A DNA stretch of 23,831 bases from a virus. Below are positions 1,492 through 23,594 of this stretch, piece after piece. The translations under genes and the position numbers were made by a program. The stretch is taken from the IMG/VR virus record IMGVR_UViG_3300031565_005441, positions 1-23,831 of that record, one strand, 5' to 3'. The stretch's first letter is position 1. Each line of letters begins with the position of its first letter. The notes under the pieces are model-generated. The model was not told the DNA's origin. It was given only the letters and a program-made list of their open reading frames with translations, and searched no databases.

Positions 1492-2628
1492 CTAACACAA
1501 CGATTTGAATAAACGCTCGTTAGGATCCCCCGACAATTGCGATACGTATTTCACGAAACCATTACGATCAACATCCCACGCAATTATTTGCACGATTTTT
1601 ACTTCGGGAGTTTCCATAAGCGATGGGCAATCCGGCCAATCCACACCCACAATCCGCTTGTTATAGGTGTCCAGAACTACTTGTGGCTTTTTAATAGATC
1701 CTTTCCCCCCGGAATTAGCCAGTGAAGTTTGAAAAACCTCGGAGCACTCCACGACGTCAGTTTTCGCGTGCCTTCCGGCCTTTTGCCCTCGGGATACCTG
1801 CCCCGACGATCTAACTGTTTCGGGCAATCCCGCGCCCCCGCTATTTCCACCACCACTGAATACAGCGTGGGGTACTGCTCCCCCTTGTACTTGTAATACC
1901 CTTGACCCACTATCACCTCGTGAATTTCCCCCTGCCATAGGCGTTTCAATTTCATGCCTGGGCGCAGCATGGCTACTAGCGGGCTTCGTCTCCGCTCTCG
2001 CATCCACCTCAGTCTTCGCCGTTGTGATTTTGTCGGCGAGCGGTTGTGTCTCTCCTTGCGCTTGTCCTGTGCCGCTACAAGACTTACATACGCCGCGTCC
2101 TCTCTTGCCTGTACCCTTGCACTTTTCGCAAAACTGGGTACCTATCGCGGCGTTTCCCCCTTTCTCCTGGGCCTCCTTACGTCGGCTAGCCTTTTTCTGC
2201 TTGGGAACTTCCACTGTTTGCGCGGCCCTTAATTCGGCCTCGTTAAGTTCCCCCTCGCTCACCTCTTCAAACATTTCGGGATCAAAGTCTTCGGCTAAAT
2301 CTTCCCCGTCGTCTAACTCGGTTTCCTCGCCCGCGTACTCTATTACTGTTCTAGTCGCCTTAACCTGTTCTTTTTCCACGACGTACGGGTTAAACCCCGT
2401 GTTCTTTTGCCAATTCATCGCGAGCAAAACAGATTTTGGATCCGTTGACGTTAGCTCTCCCAACACCTCTGGAGTAGCTTTTTTAGGGCCAATGCTTCTT
2501 TGGTGCTTTGCCAGCACGCCAGTACAAAACGCGGCGCAACATTCATTCATTGCCGTGCATCCCTTACCTTCCCTACACTCGCTGTCTGCTCGCCCATCCC
2601 AATACAACCCAAAACATGATGAACCCAT
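1492..2628 (-). CDS. Zinc-finger protein with DnaJ-type CxxCxGxG motifs; long open frame
   Basis: Function unknown. ATG 2628 is preferred over GTG 2634 because a perfect GGAGG at 2636-2640 sits 7 bases before it; this gives 378 residues. The N-terminus is cysteine-rich (C5, C18, C24, C30, C31, C35; CFGLYWDG, ECREGKGC, MNECCAAF), a possible metal site. An acidic stretch follows at about residues 98-132, then a lysine-rich linker, then CEKCKGTG and CKSCSGTG (C167, C170, C181, C184), one pair of the zinc motifs found in the DnaJ cysteine-rich domain. From about base 2003 the frame overlaps a DUF2924 coding frame and reads as glycine/serine-rich sequence. After about base 1710 it again looks like ordinary protein (VVLDTYNKRIVGVDWPDC, IIAWDVDRNGFVKYVSQL). 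The true gene may be this whole frame, only its first part, or a product joined by frameshifting. Confidence 0.7.
   Translation of the reverse strand: MGSSCFGLYWDGRADSECREGKGCTAMNECCAAFCTGVLAKHQRSIGPKKATPEVLGELTSTDPKSVLLAMNWQKNTGFNPYVVEKEQVKATRTVIEYAGEETELDDGEDLAEDFDPEMFEEVSEGELNEAELRAAQTVEVPKQKKASRRKEAQEKGGNAAIGTQFCEKCKGTGKRGRGVCKSCSGTGQAQGETQPLADKITTAKTEVDARAETKPASSHAAPRHEIETPMAGGNSRGDSGSRVLQVQGGAVPHAVFSGGGNSGGAGLPETVRSSGQVSRGQKAGRHAKTDVVECSEVFQTSLANSGGKGSIKKPQVVLDTYNKRIVGVDWPDCPSLMETPEVKIVQIIAWDVDRNGFVKYVSQLSGDPNERLFKSLC
1677..2003 (-). CDS. DUF2924 family protein, nested out of frame inside the preceding gene
   Basis: 108 residues in the +1 frame relative to the 1492-2628 frame. It matches what I know of the DUF2924 family: a basic start (LRPGMKLKRLWQG), then a beta-rich core EIHEVIVGQGYYKYKGEQYP, then TLYSVVVEIAGARDC and the family-like end SWSAPRFFKLHW. 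DUF2924 proteins occur in phages and prophages; their function is unknown. ATG 2003 is preceded by GAGGTGG, a fair ribosome binding site with short spacing. A second ATG 33 bases downstream (about 1970) would also keep the whole domain. The gene lies wholly within another open frame, so it is either a truly nested gene, a +1 frameshift product of the upstream zinc-finger frame, or a sign of an indel in the sequence. The protein family call is good; the gene structure is open. Confidence 0.72.
   Translation of the reverse strand: MRERRRSPLVAMLRPGMKLKRLWQGEIHEVIVGQGYYKYKGEQYPTLYSVVVEIAGARDCPKQLDRRGRYPEGKRPEGTRKLTSWSAPRFFKLHWLIPGGKDLLKSHK
1701..1710 (-). promoter_or_regulatory. Candidate -1 ribosomal frameshift site (GGGGGGAAAG)
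   Basis: Near the 3' end of the DUF2924 frame the codons read CCG GGG GGA AAG. This holds two overlapping X_XXY_YYZ heptamers in the right register: G_GGG_GGA and G_GGA_AAG, the latter being the slippery sequence of the phage lambda G/GT tail genes. A -1 slip moves ribosomes into the longer frame that ends at 1492, replacing the last seven residues of the DUF2924 product with about 70 others. I did not find a convincing downstream stem-loop by eye. A homopolymer error in the six-G run is an alternative. Confidence 0.4.
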
Positions 2629-3532: not shown

Positions 3533-4534
3533 CTATCCTAGATATGCCAAACCTGAAACAGCGGAAGAAGGCCGCGCTTTTGCGCGGAACTGTTCAAGCT
3601 CGGCCCGCGTGTAATCCCCTGGATCCCCATGAGGCAGGAAGACCAGCCTTGTGTCGAAAATCCCGGATAGCTGCGCGGCCGCTTGCCTCATTTCCGGCCA
3701 CGCCCCTTCGGGCTCCGCCTCCGTAGGACCATCCCAAATCAAATCTATGGCCCGTACACCCGCTTTCTGCATCTTCAGCATTTGCTGTACTGATATTCGT
3801 TTTCCGAGCGTACAAACGGCGCTCGGCCCCGCGTGAATGCAATCAATCGGACCTTCTACCACAGCAACCCGATCAAAATGTCGCGCCGTATCGAGATTCA
3901 TTAAGACGTCTCTAGGGCTAGCCGCGCCAACGTCGCTGGGCGGATTGAGTGCTTTCACGTAGTTTTCTCCGGGCCTTGCTTTCCACATTGCCCGCGCTTG
4001 GTAGTACACTAATTTTCCTTGCTCCCAAATCGGGAAAATCAAGCGGTTACGATACCTGCCCACGTCGCAAAAGACAAGTCCAAATTGCCGTATATCGTCC
4101 AAAGTTATTCCGCGCTCGGTACAATACGGCAACACTGTATTTATTGGTTTCCAACCCATGGGCGGTGGAATCTCGACTGGGCCACCATTGTATACGCGCT
4201 CACCTTCTGGGCGGAAATAGGAACCCCTAAACGAGCCGCTACCGCTCACCCGCTGCCTTGCCTGATCAATTGAACAATTCTCGAGCAACCCTACCAGTGA
4301 TAACAATCCACCCGCACCACGCACCGCACGCTTTTTACCGCCAGGCACCATTTTATACTCTTCGCAAACCCAACAGTGCCACTGTTTTTTCTGGGCATTT
4401 ACAACCAACTTTTCCCTATTACAAATAGGGCAAATCATAGACCACTCATCTTTTGGTAATGGAACCGCACCGAATTTTTTCAGGTAAGAATTAAGATCAA
4501 AATTCTTTACCGCGTGTTCTGTAGTGTTGTTCAT
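3533..4534 (-). CDS. DnaG-like DNA primase (zinc-binding and TOPRIM domains)
   Basis: 333 residues, short for a DnaG-type primase. The N-terminal zinc-binding domain has CPIC (35-38) and HCWVC (53-57), the pattern C-x2-C-x15-C-x2-C. RLIFPIWEQGKLVYYQARAM (164-183) matches the conserved core strand of DnaG-like primases. The TOPRIM fold shows VAVVEGPIDCIHAG (223-236) with the catalytic Glu228, LGKRIS (243-248) and DLIWDGP (264-270). PHGDPGDYTR (301-310) resembles the DPDE motif. The usual D-x-D reads D-G-P here, so one metal ligand seems missing or displaced. No separate C-terminal helicase domain is present; the helicase is encoded next to it. ATG 4534 overlaps the helicase stop by 4 bases (ATGA) and has AAGGCGG upstream, so the two are coupled. 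Confidence 0.9.
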   Translation of the reverse strand: MNNTTEHAVKNFDLNSYLKKFGAVPLPKDEWSMICPICNREKLVVNAQKKQWHCWVCEEYKMVPGGKKRAVRGAGGLLSLVGLLENCSIDQARQRVSGSGSFRGSYFRPEGERVYNGGPVEIPPPMGWKPINTVLPYCTERGITLDDIRQFGLVFCDVGRYRNRLIFPIWEQGKLVYYQARAMWKARPGENYVKALNPPSDVGAASPRDVLMNLDTARHFDRVAVVEGPIDCIHAGPSAVCTLGKRISVQQMLKMQKAGVRAIDLIWDGPTEAEPEGAWPEMRQAAAQLSGIFDTRLVFLPHGDPGDYTRAELEQFRAKARPSSAVSGLAYLG

Positions 4535-5985
4535 ATCGCCGCCTTTCTTTGTTGTACTAAATTCGATACTGGTTTCGTTTGTCGCGAATACCCCAATGGG
4601 GTAGCCACTAATTCAGTACTACTAGGGTGAACCACTTCCCCGGCATCCCGTATCCCTTCAATCGTCATTCGTGAAAAATCAGATTTAACTAGAAAAACTT
4701 TTCCGGCCTCATTATCCCGATAAAGCTCGGCATATAACCGCATTTGATTGGCTTGCCTCTCTTCCGCTGTTTGATTTATCGAGCCGATGAAATCCGCAAC
4801 CCTTACCTTGTCAAAGCATTCTGCAATTTTTCTACTGTTCAAAATTTCCGGCGTAGAATCGATGTCCTTGTCGGGCCTTCGCGCTTGCGAGGCCGTCCAA
4901 AGTGCGTAGCCTCTATTCGCTAAACTTTTTAAATCACGAAACGCTGCACGCTGCATATCTGTTTCGTTTTTATAACCCTTGCCTCTACCTCGCAACAAAT
5001 CGCCATAGTCCACGATAATCAACTCGGGATCCCAATCGTATAACCGTTTTAACTCCTTCATTTCTTCATGGATGTCCATAGCCGAATAATCCCAGCGTTC
5101 AGTAAAGCCCCGCAACACTAATCTATTAGAGTACATTTGGTAGTCAAAAGCCATACGCTTGTAAGTCTCTTCTGAAAACGATCCATACTTCACCGTGTTA
5201 TACTCCTCCTGCGCGAACACGGTGTCATAACGATTCGCAACCATTTTGCGCGAACCCTCAAGCACTACGTGCAATACGTTTCTATTCGCTCGCCTCACCG
5301 CTTGCACGCCGTGGTTTACCAGTATGGTTGACTTCCCCCGCTTTGGGTATGCAACCCAAATCCCCATTTCGCCTAAACTCAATCCACCGCCTAAAACATT
5401 ATCTAGTTCGTGTATCCCCGTGGGCATCGTATCGCTGTACGCGTCGTGCGCCAAACGTAAACTAGTTCGTTGGTTAAAATCTTCAAAAAAGAATTCTCGA
5501 TCTGGGGGCGACCACGCGGTGTTGTAAATGCTATCCATCATAACCGCCATGAAATCGTATGCCTCATCCACCTTCCCTTGGTTGTAAAGTTCCTTTGTTT
5601 CTCGGAAGCCATCGACGAATATATTTCGTTTAATGAAATCTAGAACTTTGTCTTTTAGCCATTGTTCCTCGACTAAACTAGATTCCACCACAGTTTCCAA
5701 AGTTAACTGAAAATATTCGCGCATGGTCGGATCAAGGTTTCTTGTCTCATCCAACAACAAAGGCAATGAGGGGATCGCGTTATATTTCTCGTTGTACCGT
5801 TCGATAAATCGAAACGCCCAACTGAGTACGTCGTTTTCAAAAAAACTATCCTTCAAATATTTAATCGCCGCGCTAGAAAACCCCACGTCACGCGTTAACA
5901 ACTTGATTAACGATTTTTGAAACTCCACGCCAAACGGAAACGTTTGTGGGATCTCTTCTTGAACCTGTGAGCGTTTGGGGGGCAT
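4531..5985 (-). CDS. DnaB-like replicative DNA helicase
   Basis: 484 residues. A helical N-terminal part (about 1-160) precedes a RecA-type ATPase. MPTGIHELDNVLGGGLSLGE (187-206) is the classic lead-in. Walker A is AYPKRGKST (212-220), Walker B is LIIVDYGDLL (322-331), and TASQARRP (364-371) carries the polar residue of motif H3. SDFSRM (435-440) lies near the expected arginine-containing C-terminal motif. The family forms hexamers that unwind the fork on the lagging strand. The start codon follows the upstream stop directly (TAAATG) and lacks a clear ribosome binding site, so it probably depends on re-initiation. It overlaps the primase gene by 4 bases, consistent with an interacting helicase-primase pair. 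Confidence 0.92.
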   Translation of the reverse strand: MPPKRSQVQEEIPQTFPFGVEFQKSLIKLLTRDVGFSSAAIKYLKDSFFENDVLSWAFRFIERYNEKYNAIPSLPLLLDETRNLDPTMREYFQLTLETVVESSLVEEQWLKDKVLDFIKRNIFVDGFRETKELYNQGKVDEAYDFMAVMMDSIYNTAWSPPDREFFFEDFNQRTSLRLAHDAYSDTMPTGIHELDNVLGGGLSLGEMGIWVAYPKRGKSTILVNHGVQAVRRANRNVLHVVLEGSRKMVANRYDTVFAQEEYNTVKYGSFSEETYKRMAFDYQMYSNRLVLRGFTERWDYSAMDIHEEMKELKRLYDWDPELIIVDYGDLLRGRGKGYKNETDMQRAAFRDLKSLANRGYALWTASQARRPDKDIDSTPEILNSRKIAECFDKVRVADFIGSINQTAEERQANQMRLYAELYRDNEAGKVFLVKSDFSRMTIEGIRDAGEVVHPSSTELVATPLGYSRQTKPVSNLVQQRKAAI

Positions 5986-7499: not shown

Positions 7500-9989
7500 C
7501 TATTTTGGCTCTCCCGCGCAACGTGTCTGGGAAAAGGACACTTGGGCAAGCCAGTGATTAAATTGACCCACATCTTCTAAGATGTCAACTTCGAAGATCG
7601 GCTCTTTGTAGTAAACCTCTAGACGCTCCTGTGAGTGCTTTAAGAGCTTACGGTTATGACGATCCGCAAAGTCCACAACAACCGCGTGTGTCTTGCCCTC
7701 CACGGCCGTGCACGTGCGATAAATCGACTGGGTGAGGGACACTTCCGCCTTTTCACCGCGTGCATAGACTAGCGCGTCCACTGTAGGCAGATCAATCCCT
7801 TCACCAAGAATTGTCGTACCCAACAGGACGCGAATTTCCTGAGAATCGATGAACGCCTTGATTATCCGCGCTTGCACTTGACGGCGCATGTCAGTGCTAA
7901 TGAATTCCGCGACCTTGAATTCAGTGCCCTTGTTAGGCTGTAAATATTTAGTGATACTTGATTGCAACAAACGGCCTTGCTTTTTCGTGCCGACTAAAAC
8001 GAGTACCTTGTAACCATATTGGGTTAGCCAATAAGTACTTTGTGCAACTATGTCATTTCGGTATTGGAATTCGTGTATCCCGTATTTCCCATGCCCAACG
8101 AAAAAACTAGTAGGCATAGGCCCGCGTTCGGATCTGGGCATCCTTTGCGTAATCGGCAGAAACACGACTTTAGTTGGTACTAGATAACCATACTGCAATA
8201 AATCCGCGCTCGTTATTCGGTAAATTGTTTCTCGTAAATGTGCGTGCATTGCCATCTCATCGCCCGCACTGCGCATAAACGTTCCTGTTGCCCCGTATCT
8301 AAAATAGATATGAGCACATTTTTCAAAAATCGTACTATATGCTTTTGCCGCTGCGTGATGGAATTCGTCTACCATGATACACTGTCGTGATTGGTAAAAA
8401 TCGTCCGGCAACGTTACCGCCGTCGCCATCGTAGAAATCACAACCGGGATCTTCTTTGCTATCTCCAACTTGTCTTGTGCTGCCCCTACCAAATGGTACG
8501 AATACAAATCGTAAAAAAACGAATCAAACACAGTTTTTGTCTGGCGTGCTATTCCGTCCGTAGGCACTACCCAAATGGTAGGCAACGCGATACTGCGTTG
8601 TATCTCACACATTATGCGGGTTTTCCCGCTGTTCTTCAATTCTATGAAACCGGCACTTACATACCGATTATCACCGTCTACCGTGAACCCGTAAAACTTC
8701 CCTCGTCCTTTAGGTCGAACCTTAAAAGAAGTTAACTGCGCATTACCACTACTTGATCCTTTTTTTACAGCTTCTTTACTAATCTTCGTGGGTATCCTAG
8801 CAACATCCCCGCATAAATGTATTCGATAGCATCGAATATCATTGAACACCTCAAGGTTAGCCTTTACCCTAAACCCCAAACTTCCCACCAAAAATAAAAA
8901 ATCTTTAACTAACTTTTCATTTTTAATTATAAGGCCGTAAATATCATTTTTAAATAAATACCCCCCATTATCAATTACCCCAGCAAGTAATTGTAACCTA
9001 CAATCACTAGTTGAAAGCAAATAACACTTAGGTATAGAATTCCCCTTACTTAGAGTTAGCCCAAAACTATACGGATCTATAGACAATACACTACCTTTAG
9101 CTTCCGGGAATTCCACGCCTTTCAATTTTAAATGGGACATACGAGCTAAATATGGTGGGGTTATTAAATACTCGCATACAGAGATTACCTGTTCTGAAAA
9201 CACTAACCGCTTTATCCCCCCACGCATTTTCCACTTACCGCAAATCAAAACTAATTCATGATGTTGGTTAACCGTGAAGGGCTCACCGCCAAACCTGGGG
9301 ATGATTTCATATAAAAGATCCTCCCCGCTATGCAATTCCAAAACACGCCTTACCGTACTGTCTGGACCAATAAGCCTGTCTCCTACCTGGACGTCTTCCA
9401 CGGGTTTCGTGGTACCGTCTGCCATGAGAATCGGTTCACCCTGGGCATGACAACGAGGGACCATGTCTAACACACCACGTCCAGCCTTAAGAGCACAATC
9501 CACCGCTTTACGCTGATAATCGCGCAACGGTATTTCGACTAGCTCTGGGAATCCCTCTTTCGGCCTTACTCGTCTATCGTCTATCGTGTATTCGTATTGG
9601 TACTTTTTAATTAACCTTTCAACTAGAGACAAAAGGCCGGTGGGAAACCACGGTAATTTGATTTTTGGTCTGCGCAATAATCGAACCCAACCATCCCATG
9701 CACTGGCCTCTATCAGGGGATCACGCTCTCCTGCTAAATGTTCTGGATCCACTACCGTGTAACGCAATTCCTTATCCAGCCAATTAAGGATAAATAAATC
9801 CGATCCTTGAATATACGTCTTTTCATTTTCTACTATCAATATCATTAGCCCGGTACTCCTTCCCAGTCTGGGATCTATCCCCGTCTTCCTAAAAACGGAT
9901 CTGTCCGCGTAACTCGATTTATGATCATCGTCATATCCAACCAACACGTTTACCAGGGGAACGATTTTCGAAAAATCGTGTCCAGTCAT
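7500..9989 (-). CDS. UvsW-like SF2 DNA helicase, precursor with intein
   Basis: 829-residue precursor: a 555-residue helicase after removal of the 274-residue intein (residues 180-453). N-terminal residues 1-150 form an accessory domain. IPLRDYQRKAVDCALKAGRG (153-172) is the Q-motif-like entry to the ATPase. After splicing the P-loop reads MVPR-SGKT, with the break inside motif I. Precursor numbering for the rest: motif Ia WVVPTDG (473-479), motif II DEFH (541-544), motif III GATGT (566-570), motif V GTTILGEGIDLP (724-735) and motif VI QSIYR (754-758). DEXH helicases of this group act on replication forks and recombination intermediates in T4 and related phages. ATG 9989 has AAAGG 5 bases upstream. 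The upstream 316-base gap probably holds its promoter. A terminator follows its 3' end. Confidence 0.92.
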   Translation of the reverse strand: MTGHDFSKIVPLVNVLVGYDDDHKSSYADRSVFRKTGIDPRLGRSTGLMILIVENEKTYIQGSDLFILNWLDKELRYTVVDPEHLAGERDPLIEASAWDGWVRLLRRPKIKLPWFPTGLLSLVERLIKKYQYEYTIDDRRVRPKEGFPELVEIPLRDYQRKAVDCALKAGRGVLDMVPRCHAQGEPILMADGTTKPVEDVQVGDRLIGPDSTVRRVLELHSGEDLLYEIIPRFGGEPFTVNQHHELVLICGKWKMRGGIKRLVFSEQVISVCEYLITPPYLARMSHLKLKGVEFPEAKGSVLSIDPYSFGLTLSKGNSIPKCYLLSTSDCRLQLLAGVIDNGGYLFKNDIYGLIIKNEKLVKDFLFLVGSLGFRVKANLEVFNDIRCYRIHLCGDVARIPTKISKEAVKKGSSSGNAQLTSFKVRPKGRGKFYGFTVDGDNRYVSAGFIELKNSGKTRIMCEIQRSIALPTIWVVPTDGIARQTKTVFDSFFYDLYSYHLVGAAQDKLEIAKKIPVVISTMATAVTLPDDFYQSRQCIMVDEFHHAAAKAYSTIFEKCAHIYFRYGATGTFMRSAGDEMAMHAHLRETIYRITSADLLQYGYLVPTKVVFLPITQRMPRSERGPMPTSFFVGHGKYGIHEFQYRNDIVAQSTYWLTQYGYKVLVLVGTKKQGRLLQSSITKYLQPNKGTEFKVAEFISTDMRRQVQARIIKAFIDSQEIRVLLGTTILGEGIDLPTVDALVYARGEKAEVSLTQSIYRTCTAVEGKTHAVVVDFADRHNRKLLKHSQERLEVYYKEPIFEVDILEDVGQFNHWLAQVSFSQTRCAGEPK
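8631..9452 (-). mobile_element. Intein with degenerate LAGLIDADG endonuclease domain
   Basis: In-frame insertion of 274 codons at the helicase P-loop. The first residue is Cys180 in CHAQGEPILMADGTTKPVED, followed by VGDRLIG, a standard Hint block A. Block B is FTVNQHHELVL (238-248). The end is FYGFTVDGDNRYVSAGFIEL, then KN, with Ser454 as the +1 nucleophile. Asn453 is present; the usual penultimate His is Lys452, which occurs in some phage inteins. The middle holds LLAGVIDNGG (334-343, about 8961-8990), a LAGLIDADG motif whose catalytic second Asp is Gly; no second copy is seen. Bases 8700-9200 look more AT-rich than the flanking helicase sequence. It probably still splices but its nuclease looks dead. 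Confidence 0.93.
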
Positions 9990-11683: not shown

Positions 11684-13795
11684 TTACGCACCTAGCGCTA
11701 AGGTCGTAATGTTCCCATTTAAATTGACTTTAAGTGCCATCGATCCTCCCGTACCCTCGATCCACATATCCCCCGATGCGGAACTAGCGAAAGCAGTACT
11801 CACATTTTGAGTTAAATGGATATTGGCCGCATTAGTTTTTCGATCAAATTGACCTCCAACCCCGTCGTAAGTTGTGCCAGTGCCGCCTTGACCATAAACA
11901 CCTGGGCCACCTACCGCCGACCCCGTACCATTCCCGCCTACACCCTTAATCCCGAAACCGCCCCATTTTCCCGCCCCGGCACCGTTTCCTCCGGTGCCAA
12001 ATACCCCGTCACCGCCATAATCAGCCCCGCTATTCCCGCCTTTGGAATAAATCCCCTCCCCACCAAAGCCACCCCCCGTGCTAACTCCACCGCCGTACAC
12101 CTCTAGACCGCGTGCCCCATCTCCCGGATTAGATGCGTTTGAAATTGCACCCGCGACTATTTTTGCCCCCAATCCAGCGGAACCGGTTGCCCAAGTAATT
12201 GTTTGAGATCCTACCTCGAGGCCTTGCCCGCTGTTTCGTGCGCTTCCCCCTGGACCGCCTTGGATAACCGCCCCCCAACCGCCGTAAGCACTTCCAACAA
12301 AATGACCGCCCATCCCACCATTTTCTGATGCCCCACCTTCGCCGCCTTCGCCGCGCACGCCTACGCCGCCTAAGCCCCCGCCTTCACCCGGACCACCTTT
12401 TCCGAGCACACCATACACACCGTTGTCACCGCTAGCTGCGAAAGGAGCACCCCCCTCGAAATATCCGCCGTAACCGGCTGTTCCCGCCGCTACACTCGTA
12501 CCGCCCTTACCATACACACCGTAACCACCCATGCCTGTACTGTACGTCGTGCCCCCGCGAAAATAACCACCGCTGCCCGCATCGCCGGTATTTGACGCCA
12601 ACCCGCCCATACCGTATACGCCCACACCACCGCCACCCGTGCCGTCGGCTCCCCCACCATAAAACGATCCACCGTTTGCGGCACTACTCACGTTCGCGGC
12701 GTTCGTGACGCTGCCGCCAGTACTTAATAACGGCGCGTCCGGTGCCCCCGTTCCCCCGGTAACGTCATTGCTCTGTATTACCGTGACTTTACCGTTTAAT
12801 CCGTCGAAATAGCCAGTGTTCCAACGATTGGACGATCCACCGATATTCTGCGTTCCCAGCGGCAATAGCGCCGTTTCTGAAAAACTAAAAATGTCTACTG
12901 TATCTAGCACTATCTTTAACGTATTCGTTGATCGCACGTACTCTAAATAATCGTCTGAATCTAATCCGAATTGCGGATTAGCCGAGCCGTTCAGCCAAAG
13001 AGAAAAGTTGGCGTCCCCAATAGCCAGCTTGTCTTCGACCGGATCCGCATCGAACCCAATATTCATACCGCCAATATCTCGGGAGTACCATTCCCTTAGA
13101 CCACGGCCTTTGATGTCTGTGAGGCATTGCCGCGTTGCCGCTGTGAAACCCTGAAGATCGGTAATCCCGTAAGTCGCCCGGTCTGCGTTACGGTCATTCG
13201 CTATACCGCCGCCGTCCGCGCTCCAACCGCTTTCGTATGAATCGGGAAGACTCCCTTCGAAATAAAATTCGCGCTCGTCCGTAATTGCCATTGTTGCCTG
13301 GGCCACCGTACCAATCCGCAACCATTCCGCGCCCGGACTCGCGGCATCCACGCGTAAAGACCAATTGGCCTGGTAGCGCGTTTGGATTGAGCTTGCGTAC
13401 TCGCTTCCATCCCCGGCTGGGTTCCAAAAAATCCGCGAAGCGTTTTCCCCGGCCACGGCCTCGAACCGAATATAAATACCGTAATCCCCCGCCGAGTAGG
13501 TATTCAGATCGATTGTTTTCGTGGCGTCACCTTCGGTAACAAGCATCCCATAACGCACCGCGCCGTCTCGACGTTCCGCGAGGATCGCTTTACCCTTAGT
13601 TACCTGTAGTTGTTTCGCCGATGGATTCGACATCGTGAAACCGCTCAAAATCCATTTTTTGGTACGCGTTGTCGAGCACATTAAACTCTCTAACAATTGC
13701 TCGGTGTTATCGTGGATGCCCGCGTTAATCAGATATTGAAAATCTTGGATATCGATTCGTTCGTTGGGCTCTACGCGCAATTTATTTTTAGGCAT
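11684..13795 (-). CDS. Tail fibre or adhesin with glycine-rich repeats
   Basis: 703 residues. The N-terminal part (1-200) resembles virion-attachment regions: QDFQYLINAGIHDNTEQLL, then a beta-rich domain ending in ITDEREFYFEGSLP. The middle (about 240-340) is beta-rich (FSLWLNGSANPQFGLDS; LPLGTQNIGGSSNRWNTGYF, a motif common in fibres with repeated 'ground truth' layouts). Residues 375-650 are over 35% glycine by eye and consist of repeating G-[VI]-[YF]-x-x-G-G units. The end (GDMWIEGTGGSMALKVNLNG) is a common closing strand of phage fibre proteins. AGGAG lies 8 bases before ATG 13795. Likely a trimeric or beta-stack host-recognition protein at the tail tip. Confidence 0.8.
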   Translation of the reverse strand: MPKNKLRVEPNERIDIQDFQYLINAGIHDNTEQLLESLMCSTTRTKKWILSGFTMSNPSAKQLQVTKGKAILAERRDGAVRYGMLVTEGDATKTIDLNTYSAGDYGIYIRFEAVAGENASRIFWNPAGDGSEYASSIQTRYQANWSLRVDAASPGAEWLRIGTVAQATMAITDEREFYFEGSLPDSYESGWSADGGGIANDRNADRATYGITDLQGFTAATRQCLTDIKGRGLREWYSRDIGGMNIGFDADPVEDKLAIGDANFSLWLNGSANPQFGLDSDDYLEYVRSTNTLKIVLDTVDIFSFSETALLPLGTQNIGGSSNRWNTGYFDGLNGKVTVIQSNDVTGGTGAPDAPLLSTGGSVTNAANVSSAANGGSFYGGGADGTGGGGVGVYGMGGLASNTGDAGSGGYFRGGTTYSTGMGGYGVYGKGGTSVAAGTAGYGGYFEGGAPFAASGDNGVYGVLGKGGPGEGGGLGGVGVRGEGGEGGASENGGMGGHFVGSAYGGWGAVIQGGPGGSARNSGQGLEVGSQTITWATGSAGLGAKIVAGAISNASNPGDGARGLEVYGGGVSTGGGFGGEGIYSKGGNSGADYGGDGVFGTGGNGAGAGKWGGFGIKGVGGNGTGSAVGGPGVYGQGGTGTTYDGVGGQFDRKTNAANIHLTQNVSTAFASSASGDMWIEGTGGSMALKVNLNGNITTLALGA
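11846..12673 (-). repeat. Glycine-rich repeat region in the fibre gene
   Basis: Codes for residues 375-650 of the fibre. Units of the form GVGVYGMGG, GYGVYGKGG, GVGVRGEGG, DGVFGTGG, GFGIKGVGG and PGVYGQGG alternate with GSGGYFRGG, GYGGYFEGG and GMGGHFVGS, about every 17 residues. Spacing is irregular by a few residues, so it is diverged at DNA level. Confidence 0.85.
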
Positions 13796-21611: not shown

Positions 21612-23594
21612 CTATAGCATCACGCGCAATGGGCGCACGTCGGAAAACCCTCTAACTTCTACAGTCATATCCACGAGCAATGTATCGCCTTCATAATCGA
21701 AATCCACGTTGCTAATACCTGACACCCTTGGATCGCTCGATAATGCTTCCAAAACTCGGAAACGTGCGTTTTCCAAATTGACGGCCGTCATCCCCAGACC
21801 AACAATTCGTTGGATTCCCAATCGTTGGTAGAGCACATCCGAACCCTGTTCAACGCGTAGGCGCGTCAAAATAACTTGACCTAGATTCCGCATACCTGAA
21901 ACCAACTTTACATCCACGCTTCCCAATTCTGAATCAATTGGGATATCGTACTGGACACGATCTGAGCCAGTTAACGCTTGCTCCCCCACTAGCTCGGTAT
22001 CCGTACCCAAAAATTGCTCTTCTGTCGTTTCTTCCAACCGCGCACCCAATACAGGAAGCAATGGAAAATCAAGAGAAGATACCGTATTTGATGGTATGAC
22101 GATTTTACTGCCTACACCTAGCGTACGGTCAAACGGTAATTCATCCGCACCCGTGGCCCTACCAGACGTTTGACTGCCATCACTGACACCGCCAACAAGA
22201 GGGACGTTTGCCTGGGAATCAATGAATGGTGGTTTTAAACCGTTGGCGATGGCGATATATTGCCACAAACGCGCATCACCCAAATAACGCGCTGACAATG
22301 AAACTAGAGTATCCCCCTCGTTTAGCGTAACCTGTCGGCCGCTTTTATACCGTCGTATACGGTTACCCGCTAGCACCGTTCCATCGGCGGACATTATGTC
22401 ACCGGGAGTTAAATTCGTTCCGAGCGCTCGTGCCTTTTCTAAAGTGTCTATCGATCTAGCCAACGATGTCGAACGCCGCGTAGAGCTAATCATACGACGA
22501 ATGTCTTGTTGATCTCGAATCTTTCTCAGTGTCGATTCTGTGGAAGTTTCCCAACTCGATGGATTAGTACCTAGTTGCTCTAGCCCGTCCGCCATTTGTC
22601 GCAATTTTTGAAGGTAGTCTTCGGGAAAATTGGCGTAGGTATCACCTAGTTCTTTGTGCGTGCTAATCAATTCCGCCGCCTCATCAATTAACGCGGCCGT
22701 GGCCGTTAAATGTGAAAGGGGCGTTTGTATCAAATCAGTAACCCCGTCAATAAAATCAGAAGCCGCGCTTAATACCGTGGTCACCGCGTCAATTATTTGA
22801 GTAACATTGTTGATATACGCTTTTGCTTCCGCTTGTATCGCGGTCAAGTCGTGGAGCGCGCCCGTGGCCAAATCAACACCACGTTTCATTGACCTCAAGG
22901 TATCTTTCATGTTGTCAAAAATATTTTTGTCTTCTGAAAAATCCGCATCCCGTGCTTCCGCCGTGTCCACCGCCGTCAATTCGATATTGTATCGATAGAG
23001 AAACGGTTGCCCGCTTTCGCGCTCGAGCGTGAATTTTTGCGGGATTACCACCCAATGCTCATCGTCCTTCGGATTATGAAAAATCAATACCGTTTCTTCC
23101 GAAGTTGCGGGATCCCGTTTCAGATCCGCGTACGTACGGAAAACCGAATCCTGCAAATATTGGAAATGGCGATGTCCTGAAATCGCTTGAATAACCGGCG
23201 ACGTGGGTAATGATCTTGAAAACGATTTTTGCTTTGGGTTCAAAATTGCCGGTACCGGGATATTTCCGGCTGGGAGCGAATCATACGTTTTGAGCAATCG
23301 TGGTTTAAAGCCCGTAGTTCCGCGCAAATGTATCGACCGTTGTACAATCCCGTTTTCCTCGACGAATACCCCGCCGCCTTGCGTAGGGGTTATTTCGGCC
23401 GAAAACGGTTCATCCATCGAATACGATTCGGGAGGGATTACCAAAGGAAATAAAAAACTCGACGTTTTCACTTGTAGCAATGATGCGGGCAAACGTAGCT
23501 CAAAAAAGTAGAGCATACGTTTCAGAAATTTATCGTCTTTCTGGGCGCGTTGCCTCGCCTTCTCCTTGATATATGCAATCGTGCTACTAGGCAT
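21612..23594 (-). CDS. Baseplate protein: LysM domain with gp25-like C-terminus
   Basis: 660 residues. The N-terminus (28-100) is beta-rich (LYFFELRLPASLLQV, FLFPLVIPPESYSM, EITPTQGGGVFVEENGIV). Residues 222-400 are helical, with coiled-coil-like stretches (NNVTQIIDAVTTVLSAASDF). Residues 421-505 form a LysM domain (VTLNEGDTLVSLSARYLGDA then RLWQYIAIANGL, ending KIVIP). Residues 565-650 resemble T4 gp25/P2 W: GQVILTRLRVEQGSDVLYQR, then LGIQRIVGLG, then ALSSDPRVSGISNVDFDYEG and LLVDMTVEVRG. In phages such as P2 these are separate genes, so this looks like a fusion. It lies upstream of baseplate J, where W-like genes usually lie. GAGGT precedes ATG 23594 by 4 bases. Likely a wedge/hub connector. 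Confidence 0.8.
   Translation of the reverse strand: MPSSTIAYIKEKARQRAQKDDKFLKRMLYFFELRLPASLLQVKTSSFLFPLVIPPESYSMDEPFSAEITPTQGGGVFVEENGIVQRSIHLRGTTGFKPRLLKTYDSLPAGNIPVPAILNPKQKSFSRSLPTSPVIQAISGHRHFQYLQDSVFRTYADLKRDPATSEETVLIFHNPKDDEHWVVIPQKFTLERESGQPFLYRYNIELTAVDTAEARDADFSEDKNIFDNMKDTLRSMKRGVDLATGALHDLTAIQAEAKAYINNVTQIIDAVTTVLSAASDFIDGVTDLIQTPLSHLTATAALIDEAAELISTHKELGDTYANFPEDYLQKLRQMADGLEQLGTNPSSWETSTESTLRKIRDQQDIRRMISSTRRSTSLARSIDTLEKARALGTNLTPGDIMSADGTVLAGNRIRRYKSGRQVTLNEGDTLVSLSARYLGDARLWQYIAIANGLKPPFIDSQANVPLVGGVSDGSQTSGRATGADELPFDRTLGVGSKIVIPSNTVSSLDFPLLPVLGARLEETTEEQFLGTDTELVGEQALTGSDRVQYDIPIDSELGSVDVKLVSGMRNLGQVILTRLRVEQGSDVLYQRLGIQRIVGLGMTAVNLENARFRVLEALSSDPRVSGISNVDFDYEGDTLLVDMTVEVRGFSDVRPLRVML

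Follow-up and report, generated by a model that had tools for sequence, protein, structure and literature searches.

A conserved two-frame gene in uncultured tailed phages: a DUF2924 domain overprinted by a zinc-finger frame, with a putative -1 frameshift signal

Introduction

How does a conserved protein domain come to lie out of frame inside a longer open reading frame of a phage, and how might both proteins be made? The question is raised by an IMG/VR virus contig of 23,831 bases (the window, by which we mean this whole stretch), in which a DUF2924-like ORF of 108 codons is enclosed by another of 378 codons on the same strand. An earlier note had set three explanations side by side: a nested gene with its own start at ATG 2003, a zinc-finger/DUF2924 fusion produced by a +1 shift near base 1990, or a single gene broken by indels. 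Genes decoded in two frames are known in phages, where a review draws its examples from the capsid and tail and describes +1, -1 and in-frame decoding as interchangeable (PMC5009743). Likewise, 2397 of the 2476 annotated phage frameshift genes in the PRFect training set are tail assembly chaperones, the other 79 being hypothetical (PMC10885494). Here we compare the locus with its relatives, all of them, like the window, metagenomic contigs.

Results

The locus and its relatives

The two-frame gene is located between the genes for primase and DNA polymerase A (Table 1) and belongs to a clade of uncultured tailed phages. Its enclosing frame runs from ATG 2628, which has GGAGG upstream, to TAG 1494-1492 without interruption, and an in-frame GTG at 2634 would lengthen the protein to 380 aa. 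The nested ORF (ATG 2003 to TAG 1679-1677) matches PF11149 (DUF2924) with E=1.3e-9 and 38.9 bits, above the gathering cut-off of 31.2, and so carries the family signature that the earlier note had recognized at 1677-2003. The match is partial, covering positions of about 74-125 out of 135; it corresponds to the C-terminal part of the profile, and the first half of the domain is missing. No Pfam family matches the enclosing protein. Below 1677 the tail segment is the single coding frame. Measured in 6 phages, the distance from the ORF end to a start codon in the polymerase frame lies between -14 and +18 nt in 5 of them.

Table 1. Features of the two-frame locus and its neighbours in the window
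Feature	Positions	Strand	Basis or remark
Enclosing ORF, 378 aa	1492..2628	-	N-terminal domain, acidic linker, zinc finger, overlapped linker, tail
N-terminal Cys-rich helical domain (CFGLYWDG...C...C)	2389..2628	-	sequence; AlphaFold; motif in all relatives
TAG in DUF2924 frame	2142..2144	-	14 nt 5' of zinc finger
Partial hairpin (GUACCC/GGGUAC + inner 5 bp)	2111..2141	-	site of the relatives' putative frameshift hairpin; no slip heptamer before it
Zinc finger CEKCKGTGKRGRGVCKSCSGTG, enclosing frame	2065..2130	-	four Cys and GxG pattern kept in 12/12
GAGGTGG, candidate Shine-Dalgarno	2004..2010	-	directly 5' of ATG 2003
Nested DUF2924 ORF, 108 aa	1677..2003	-	+1 relative to enclosing frame
Overlapped low-complexity linker of enclosing protein	1693..2052	-	pLDDT under 50
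Tail segment (VDWPDCPSL...), predicted small beta domain	1495..1692	-	pLDDT about 70; coding pattern in L005/L007
DNA polymerase family A, incomplete at contig end	3..1484	-	PF00476, E=3.7e-47
Primase	3533-4534	-	neighbour; query for finding relatives
DnaB-like helicase	4531-5985	-	neighbour; query for finding relatives

The window's two proteins gave no matches as queries against phage records and IMG/VR, and neither did the polymerase alone against IMG/VR. Relatives were obtained through the neighbouring genes: L002 from a primase search, L004 from an alignment of two primases, and L005, L007, L009 and L010, then L040, L041, L044, L045 and L046, from helicase alignments. With duplicates merged (L003, L008 and L020 are the L002 contig, L006 the L004 contig), the comparison set comprises 12 distinct contigs including the window, that is 11 relatives, which span 39% to 65% GC and whose helicases are 42-57% identical to that of the window. 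A DUF2924 match at a loose threshold was recorded in 10 of the 12 phages. The motifs of the gene were not found in the distant helicase relatives L047-L053, and a Clostridiales MAG contig (L117) holds its N-terminus only, at the contig end.

Two frames kept open in 12 contigs

Throughout the set the zinc finger, which is of the CxxCxGxG type (C..C.G.G ... C..C.G.G), and the tail share one frame with DUF2924 at +1 to it, and this zinc-finger frame is free of stops across the entire DUF2924 sequence before it continues into the tail segment. Openness was assessed by synonymous resampling given each DUF2924 protein and its own contig's codon usage. The open enclosing frame reported earlier for the window was confirmed and would arise there with a probability of 0.0001; the values range from below 1/20,000 (L002, L040) to 0.15 (L010), and their product over the 12 contigs is about 1e-29 if the phages are independent, which holds only approximately. 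The third frame has 12 stops in the window and 2-15 per contig across the set, and openness is kept in L040 despite its 39% GC. Both frames are open beyond chance in related genomes, as in an overlapping gene pair.

The pattern of substitution tells which frame is read where. Variation in the zinc-finger codons falls mostly at the third position of the zinc-finger frame, and the mean BLOSUM score of the finger is 3.9-4.1 in its own frame versus 0.9-1.4 in the DUF frame. Between L005 and L007, substitutions at codon positions 1/2/3 amount to 33/28/69 in the N-terminus and 27/20/50 in the overlap (both counted in the DUF frame), and to 37/20/51 in the tail beyond the DUF2924 stop (counted in the zinc-finger frame). 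Inside the overlap the substitutions follow the DUF2924 frame, with the zinc finger and tail following the other frame, and these codon-position patterns argue that the N-terminus and DUF2924 make up one frame and the tail the other, the overlap being mainly a linker that must stay open. Among relatives the linker sequence is hardly conserved, and distant members (L009, L010, L040, L041) have little of the tail sequence in common. Zinc finger and tail are nonetheless homologous in the 11 relatives, which upholds the view that the enclosing frame codes for protein on both sides of the nested ORF.

Two arrangements of the N-terminal domain

The relatives differ in which frame carries the N-terminal domain. 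In nine phages (state A: L002, L004, L005, L007, L009, L041, L044, L045 and L046) one unbroken ORF leads from the N-terminal domain (Cys-rich, C[FYH]G..[WY]) over a linker that is acidic or carries AT hooks to DUF2924; the N-terminal domain of the window's enclosing ORF is common to these N-DUF2924 proteins. In state A the zinc-finger-tail frame is open for 11 to 60 codons ahead of the zinc finger, and in 7 of the 9 phages this stretch, which begins after the upstream stop, contains no ATG, GTG, TTG, CTG, ATT, ATC or ATA. In L002 and L004 the sole start candidate is an ATC just before the first Cys. State A thus presents a -1 frame that is open and coding and has no start of its own, as in a frameshift cassette.

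In the other three phages (state B: the window, L010 and L040) the N-terminal domain stands in the zinc-finger-tail frame, and a stop closes the DUF2924 frame 5 to 26 nt 5' of the zinc finger. Because this stop is TAG 2144-2142 in the window, a direct fusion of N-terminus and DUF2924 is impossible there. The state-B sample is small, three phages; these occupy three places in the helicase tree (3 changes), and the well supported branches alone are compatible with a single state change.

A putative frameshift signal in state A

All nine state-A phages carry the motif X_XNC_CCY in the zero frame, as C_CAC_CCT, C_CGC_CCT (2), C_CGC_CCC (2), G_GAC_CCT (2), G_GCC_CCT or A_AAC_CCT, with 14 nt from the CCY end to the first Cys codon in eight phages and 17 nt in L045. 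The motif occurs 29 times in 24,228 codons of long genes on the same contigs (NNC_CCY 122 times), a background rate that serves as a guide only, the motif having been found after inspection. It is absent from the corresponding site of the three state-B phages. In state A the zero frame reads H, R, D, A or N followed by Pro at the motif, and the -1 frame P, G or K followed by Pro; judging from these residues, the amino acids of neither frame account for X_XNC_CCY. A strict X_XXY_YYZ heptamer is found only in L046 (A_AAC_CCT), and in the other eight phages the A-site codon re-pairs fully and the P-site codon at its first base only. Slippage would accordingly involve re-pairing of the A-site Pro-tRNA from CCY to CCC, with good P-site re-pairing in L046 alone, and X_XNC_CCY may represent a variant class that acts like the canonical heptamer yet is distinct from it.

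In 9 of 9 state-A phages a hairpin, of about 12-14 bp in most, stands downstream of the motif, as is typical of a stimulatory RNA structure (5-9 nt downstream); the spacer measures about 5-7 nt, except for 3 in the L007 MFE fold and 7-10 in L045. In eight of these phages the hairpin exceeds that obtained by synonymous resampling of the zinc-finger frame (p below 0.0005 to 0.029), the remaining one being L045 (p=0.10), where the hairpin is weaker and the spacing deviates. By the same comparison it is absent in L010 (p=0.91) and L040 (p=0.69), and in the window it is partly kept (MFE -12.0 kcal/mol, p=0.0075). Among the eight gapless state-A sequences 7 of 12 hairpin pairs have changed on both sides, and the covariation score is 0.417 versus 0.159 for shuffled and at most 0.086 for slid alignments. 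The site, with its slip motif, short spacer and GC-rich hairpin that covaries, is built like that of a -1 programmed ribosomal frameshift (PRF).

Other shift sites were considered and set aside. Slippage at A-rich stretches of the AT-hook repeats (A AAA AAT, KNPE) was dropped because the phages do not share these sites and L007 leaves a mere 11 codons; a -1 shift near the DUF2924 end to reach the tail was dropped as well, the zinc finger being itself in the tail frame. Shine-Dalgarno-like stimulators occur upstream in the frameshift phages, and because their distance varies (1 to 25 nt) we make no claim for them. We also observed a second strong hairpin right after the first in L005 (15188-15215) and L007 (15323-15345), clearest in that pair.

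Proposed decoding of the gene

The frame relations, openness, conservation, slip motif, covarying hairpin and absence of starts are features of the aligned sequences; from them we infer slipping and its efficiency, both products and their roles. We consider it likely that this is one conserved two-frame gene, from which state-A phages obtain both proteins by -1 PRF, and which in the window encodes the N-zinc finger-tail protein directly and DUF2924 as a nested protein. From one start, state-A phages would make two proteins that share the N-terminal domain: N-basic linker-DUF2924 when the ribosome stays in frame, and N-zinc finger-linker-tail when it shifts by -1 at X_XNC_CCY, with the hairpin just downstream as stimulator. 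In the window, where the N-terminus is now in the zinc-finger frame, ordinary decoding from ATG 2628 would produce N-zinc finger-tail, and DUF2924 would be made separately, most likely from ATG 2003. A broader proposal, which we put forward tentatively, is that within the replication module X_XNC_CCY and its hairpin set the ratio of N-DUF2924 to N-zinc finger-tail, and that the signal has repeatedly been swapped for a fusion (window, L010, L040) with the phase of the two frames held constant.

Weighing the alternatives

How DUF2924 is made in the window is the least certain step, and on sequence grounds we would favour internal initiation at ATG 2003 over a +1 shift. ATG 2003 is the only ATG, GTG or TTG in the DUF2924 frame ahead of the conserved core, and GAGGTGG before it forms a good duplex (-10.1 kcal/mol), but with a spacing of 0-3 nt, which is too short to be optimal. 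The nested gene of the earlier note is hence real and conserved as an arrangement, and its start likeliest for the window, although initiation there would omit the conserved RW residues. Conserved DUF2924-frame residues (RW.RER) indeed extend upstream to about 2009, and these, together with a DUF2924 frame that meets no further stop after TAG 2144 as it passes the zinc finger (similarly in L010 and L040), speak for a +1 (or -2) shift past the beginning of the zinc finger to give an N-zinc finger-DUF2924 fusion. Because RW.RER reach so far, any such shift would have to occur upstream, between TAG 2144-2142 and about 2006; the site near 1990 suggested earlier lies inside the conserved domain, so that the fusion survives as an alternative and its proposed place does not. 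L040 has a potentially slippery A8 run after the zinc finger, but no slip motif or hairpin is common to the three state-B phages beyond that point. The window lacks the slip site and has only part of the hairpin, and the latter (2141-2111) is placed too far upstream to serve: a +1 shift ahead of it would run into TAG 2144. On balance we regard this fusion as rather unlikely. The run in L040 (5845-5860, eight A in GAAAAAAAATTGG) lies just past the zinc finger and is a possible slippage link to the DUF2924 frame of that phage.

For the locus as a whole, an indel-broken gene could point to the nine relatives in which N-terminus and DUF2924 share an uninterrupted frame, a finding that the earlier note had expected of a sequence error. 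Error does not follow, because in those very relatives the zinc-finger-tail frame stays open at -1 to DUF2924: the two are out of frame in 12 of 12 contigs, which refutes error as the source of the frame relation. Several errors would moreover be needed, given the TAG 14 nt before the zinc finger and the missing slip motif, and L010 and L040 share the window's arrangement, so that we give this reading next to no credence. A further reading, only slightly less implausible, takes the zinc-finger-tail frame for one that is open by chance or as a relic and is untranslated over DUF2924. Substitutions in the overlap do track DUF2924 and the linker has hardly been conserved, but against this stand the openness in every contig, even at the low GC of L040, the conservation of the zinc finger before and the tail after, and the coding pattern of the tail in the zinc-finger frame. 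Finally, the relatives' zinc-finger-tail might be a separate gene, begun with no frameshift at an unusual codon within the N-DUF2924 gene, as the ATC of L002 and L004 would allow. We hold this to be highly improbable: the other seven phages offer no table-11 start codon, slip motif and hairpin stand at a fixed place, and in state B the N-terminal domain shares the frame of the zinc finger, an indication that this domain belongs to the zinc-finger-tail protein.

Domains and possible role

AlphaFold models the helical N-domain of the window's long protein with confidence (pLDDT about 90 for residues 30-80), the zinc finger with moderate confidence and the tail as a small beta structure (pLDDT about 70); residues 193-312, which are the DUF2924 overlap, are disordered (pLDDT under 50). 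In the N-DUF2924 protein of L005 the N- and DUF2924 domains are both confident and are separated by a disordered basic linker. A PDB fold search returned no significant match (best E 0.5), with several weak resemblances to Lrp-type winged-helix DNA-binding folds (prob about 0.9, E near 1), and a PDB sequence search with the DUF2924 alignment found nothing convincing. A link of DUF2924 to RAMA-type domains, which we also considered, was supported by no result. The zinc finger has two CxxCxGxG repeats versus the four required of the DnaJ central zinc domain (PF00684), which had no match in the window and a best score of 19.9 bits (L040) against a cut-off of 32.7. From their place, the zinc finger and the AT hooks, the products are presumably two nucleic-acid-binding proteins of the replication module that share an N-domain. 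Tandem AT-hook repeats (KRGRGRPPKA, KRGPGRPRKNPE) lie between the N-domain and the zinc finger/DUF2924 in L010 (12100-12420, with an AT_hook Pfam match) and L002 (8030-8280), and their number varies between phages.

Several other genes of these contigs deserve mention. At 7500-9989 (-) the window encodes a ResIII/Helicase_C helicase with an intein-like insert (PF05203 Hom_end_hint, residues 180-248), its helicase domains following from residue 454 on, past the insert, and the DNA polymerase A of L004 (10182-13034, 950 aa) apparently has two intein-like inserts by eye (e.g. CLHPSTLVETVAGK...HNYILGCGVVTCNS). At 11684-13795 (-), downstream of the tail genes, the window encodes a protein of 703 aa that has long Gly-rich repeats of the YGVYGKGG type, and a tail tube initiator-like protein (PF23980) at 21612-23594 (-) is indicative of a contractile-type tail or baseplate module.

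Discussion

The proposed decoding resembles that of the lambda G/GT tail assembly chaperones, in which one start and a -1 slip past a shared region give two products in a set ratio. G and GT are virion assembly genes, whereas the gene described here lies between primase and polymerase; and, unlike in G/GT, a complete conserved domain follows in the zero-frame product and is overprinted by the -1 frame. Alternative C-termini are likewise a feature of the phage capsid and tail frameshifts (T7 gp10, T3, A2 and Listeria PSA/A118/A500), whose products are, to our knowledge, extensions beyond the zero-frame stop with no long overlap of a conserved domain. The slip site of PSA differs, being +1 at CCC_UGA or CCC_UCC. 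A similar layout is that of arterivirus nsp2TF and cardiovirus 2B*, where the trans-frame segment overprints a conserved zero-frame domain, as it would here; those are unrelated proteins of RNA viruses, and the present phages have dsDNA. Cardiovirus 2B* is cited in the review of recoding (PMC5009743), which also describes how decoding modes of capsid and tail genes replace each other, as they appear to do between our frameshift and in-frame phages.

With the DUF2924 family as catalogued (PF11149, phrog_11806) the present proteins have the C-terminal part in common. In our set the first half is replaced by the shared N-domain and a basic linker, and the domain is always overprinted. Mentions of DUF2924 that we found in the literature concern Wolbachia only, and we found no description of this two-frame gene in the openly searchable literature. 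Frameshift-accessed overprinted genes being already known, we rate as new the putative replication-module frameshift with its X_XNC_CCY slip class.

In tailed phages, nearly all known programmed frameshifts lie in genes for tail and capsid proteins. If our reading is true, a frameshift also sets the output of a replication-module gene, with the shifted frame overprinting a conserved domain, and X_XNC_CCY provides a non-canonical slip class that can be checked. Gene callers report one protein of the two, so that similar pairs have probably been missed in other phage genomes. The nine frameshift and three in-frame phages would constitute a natural experiment on the gain and loss of a decoding signal under an overlap that is kept.
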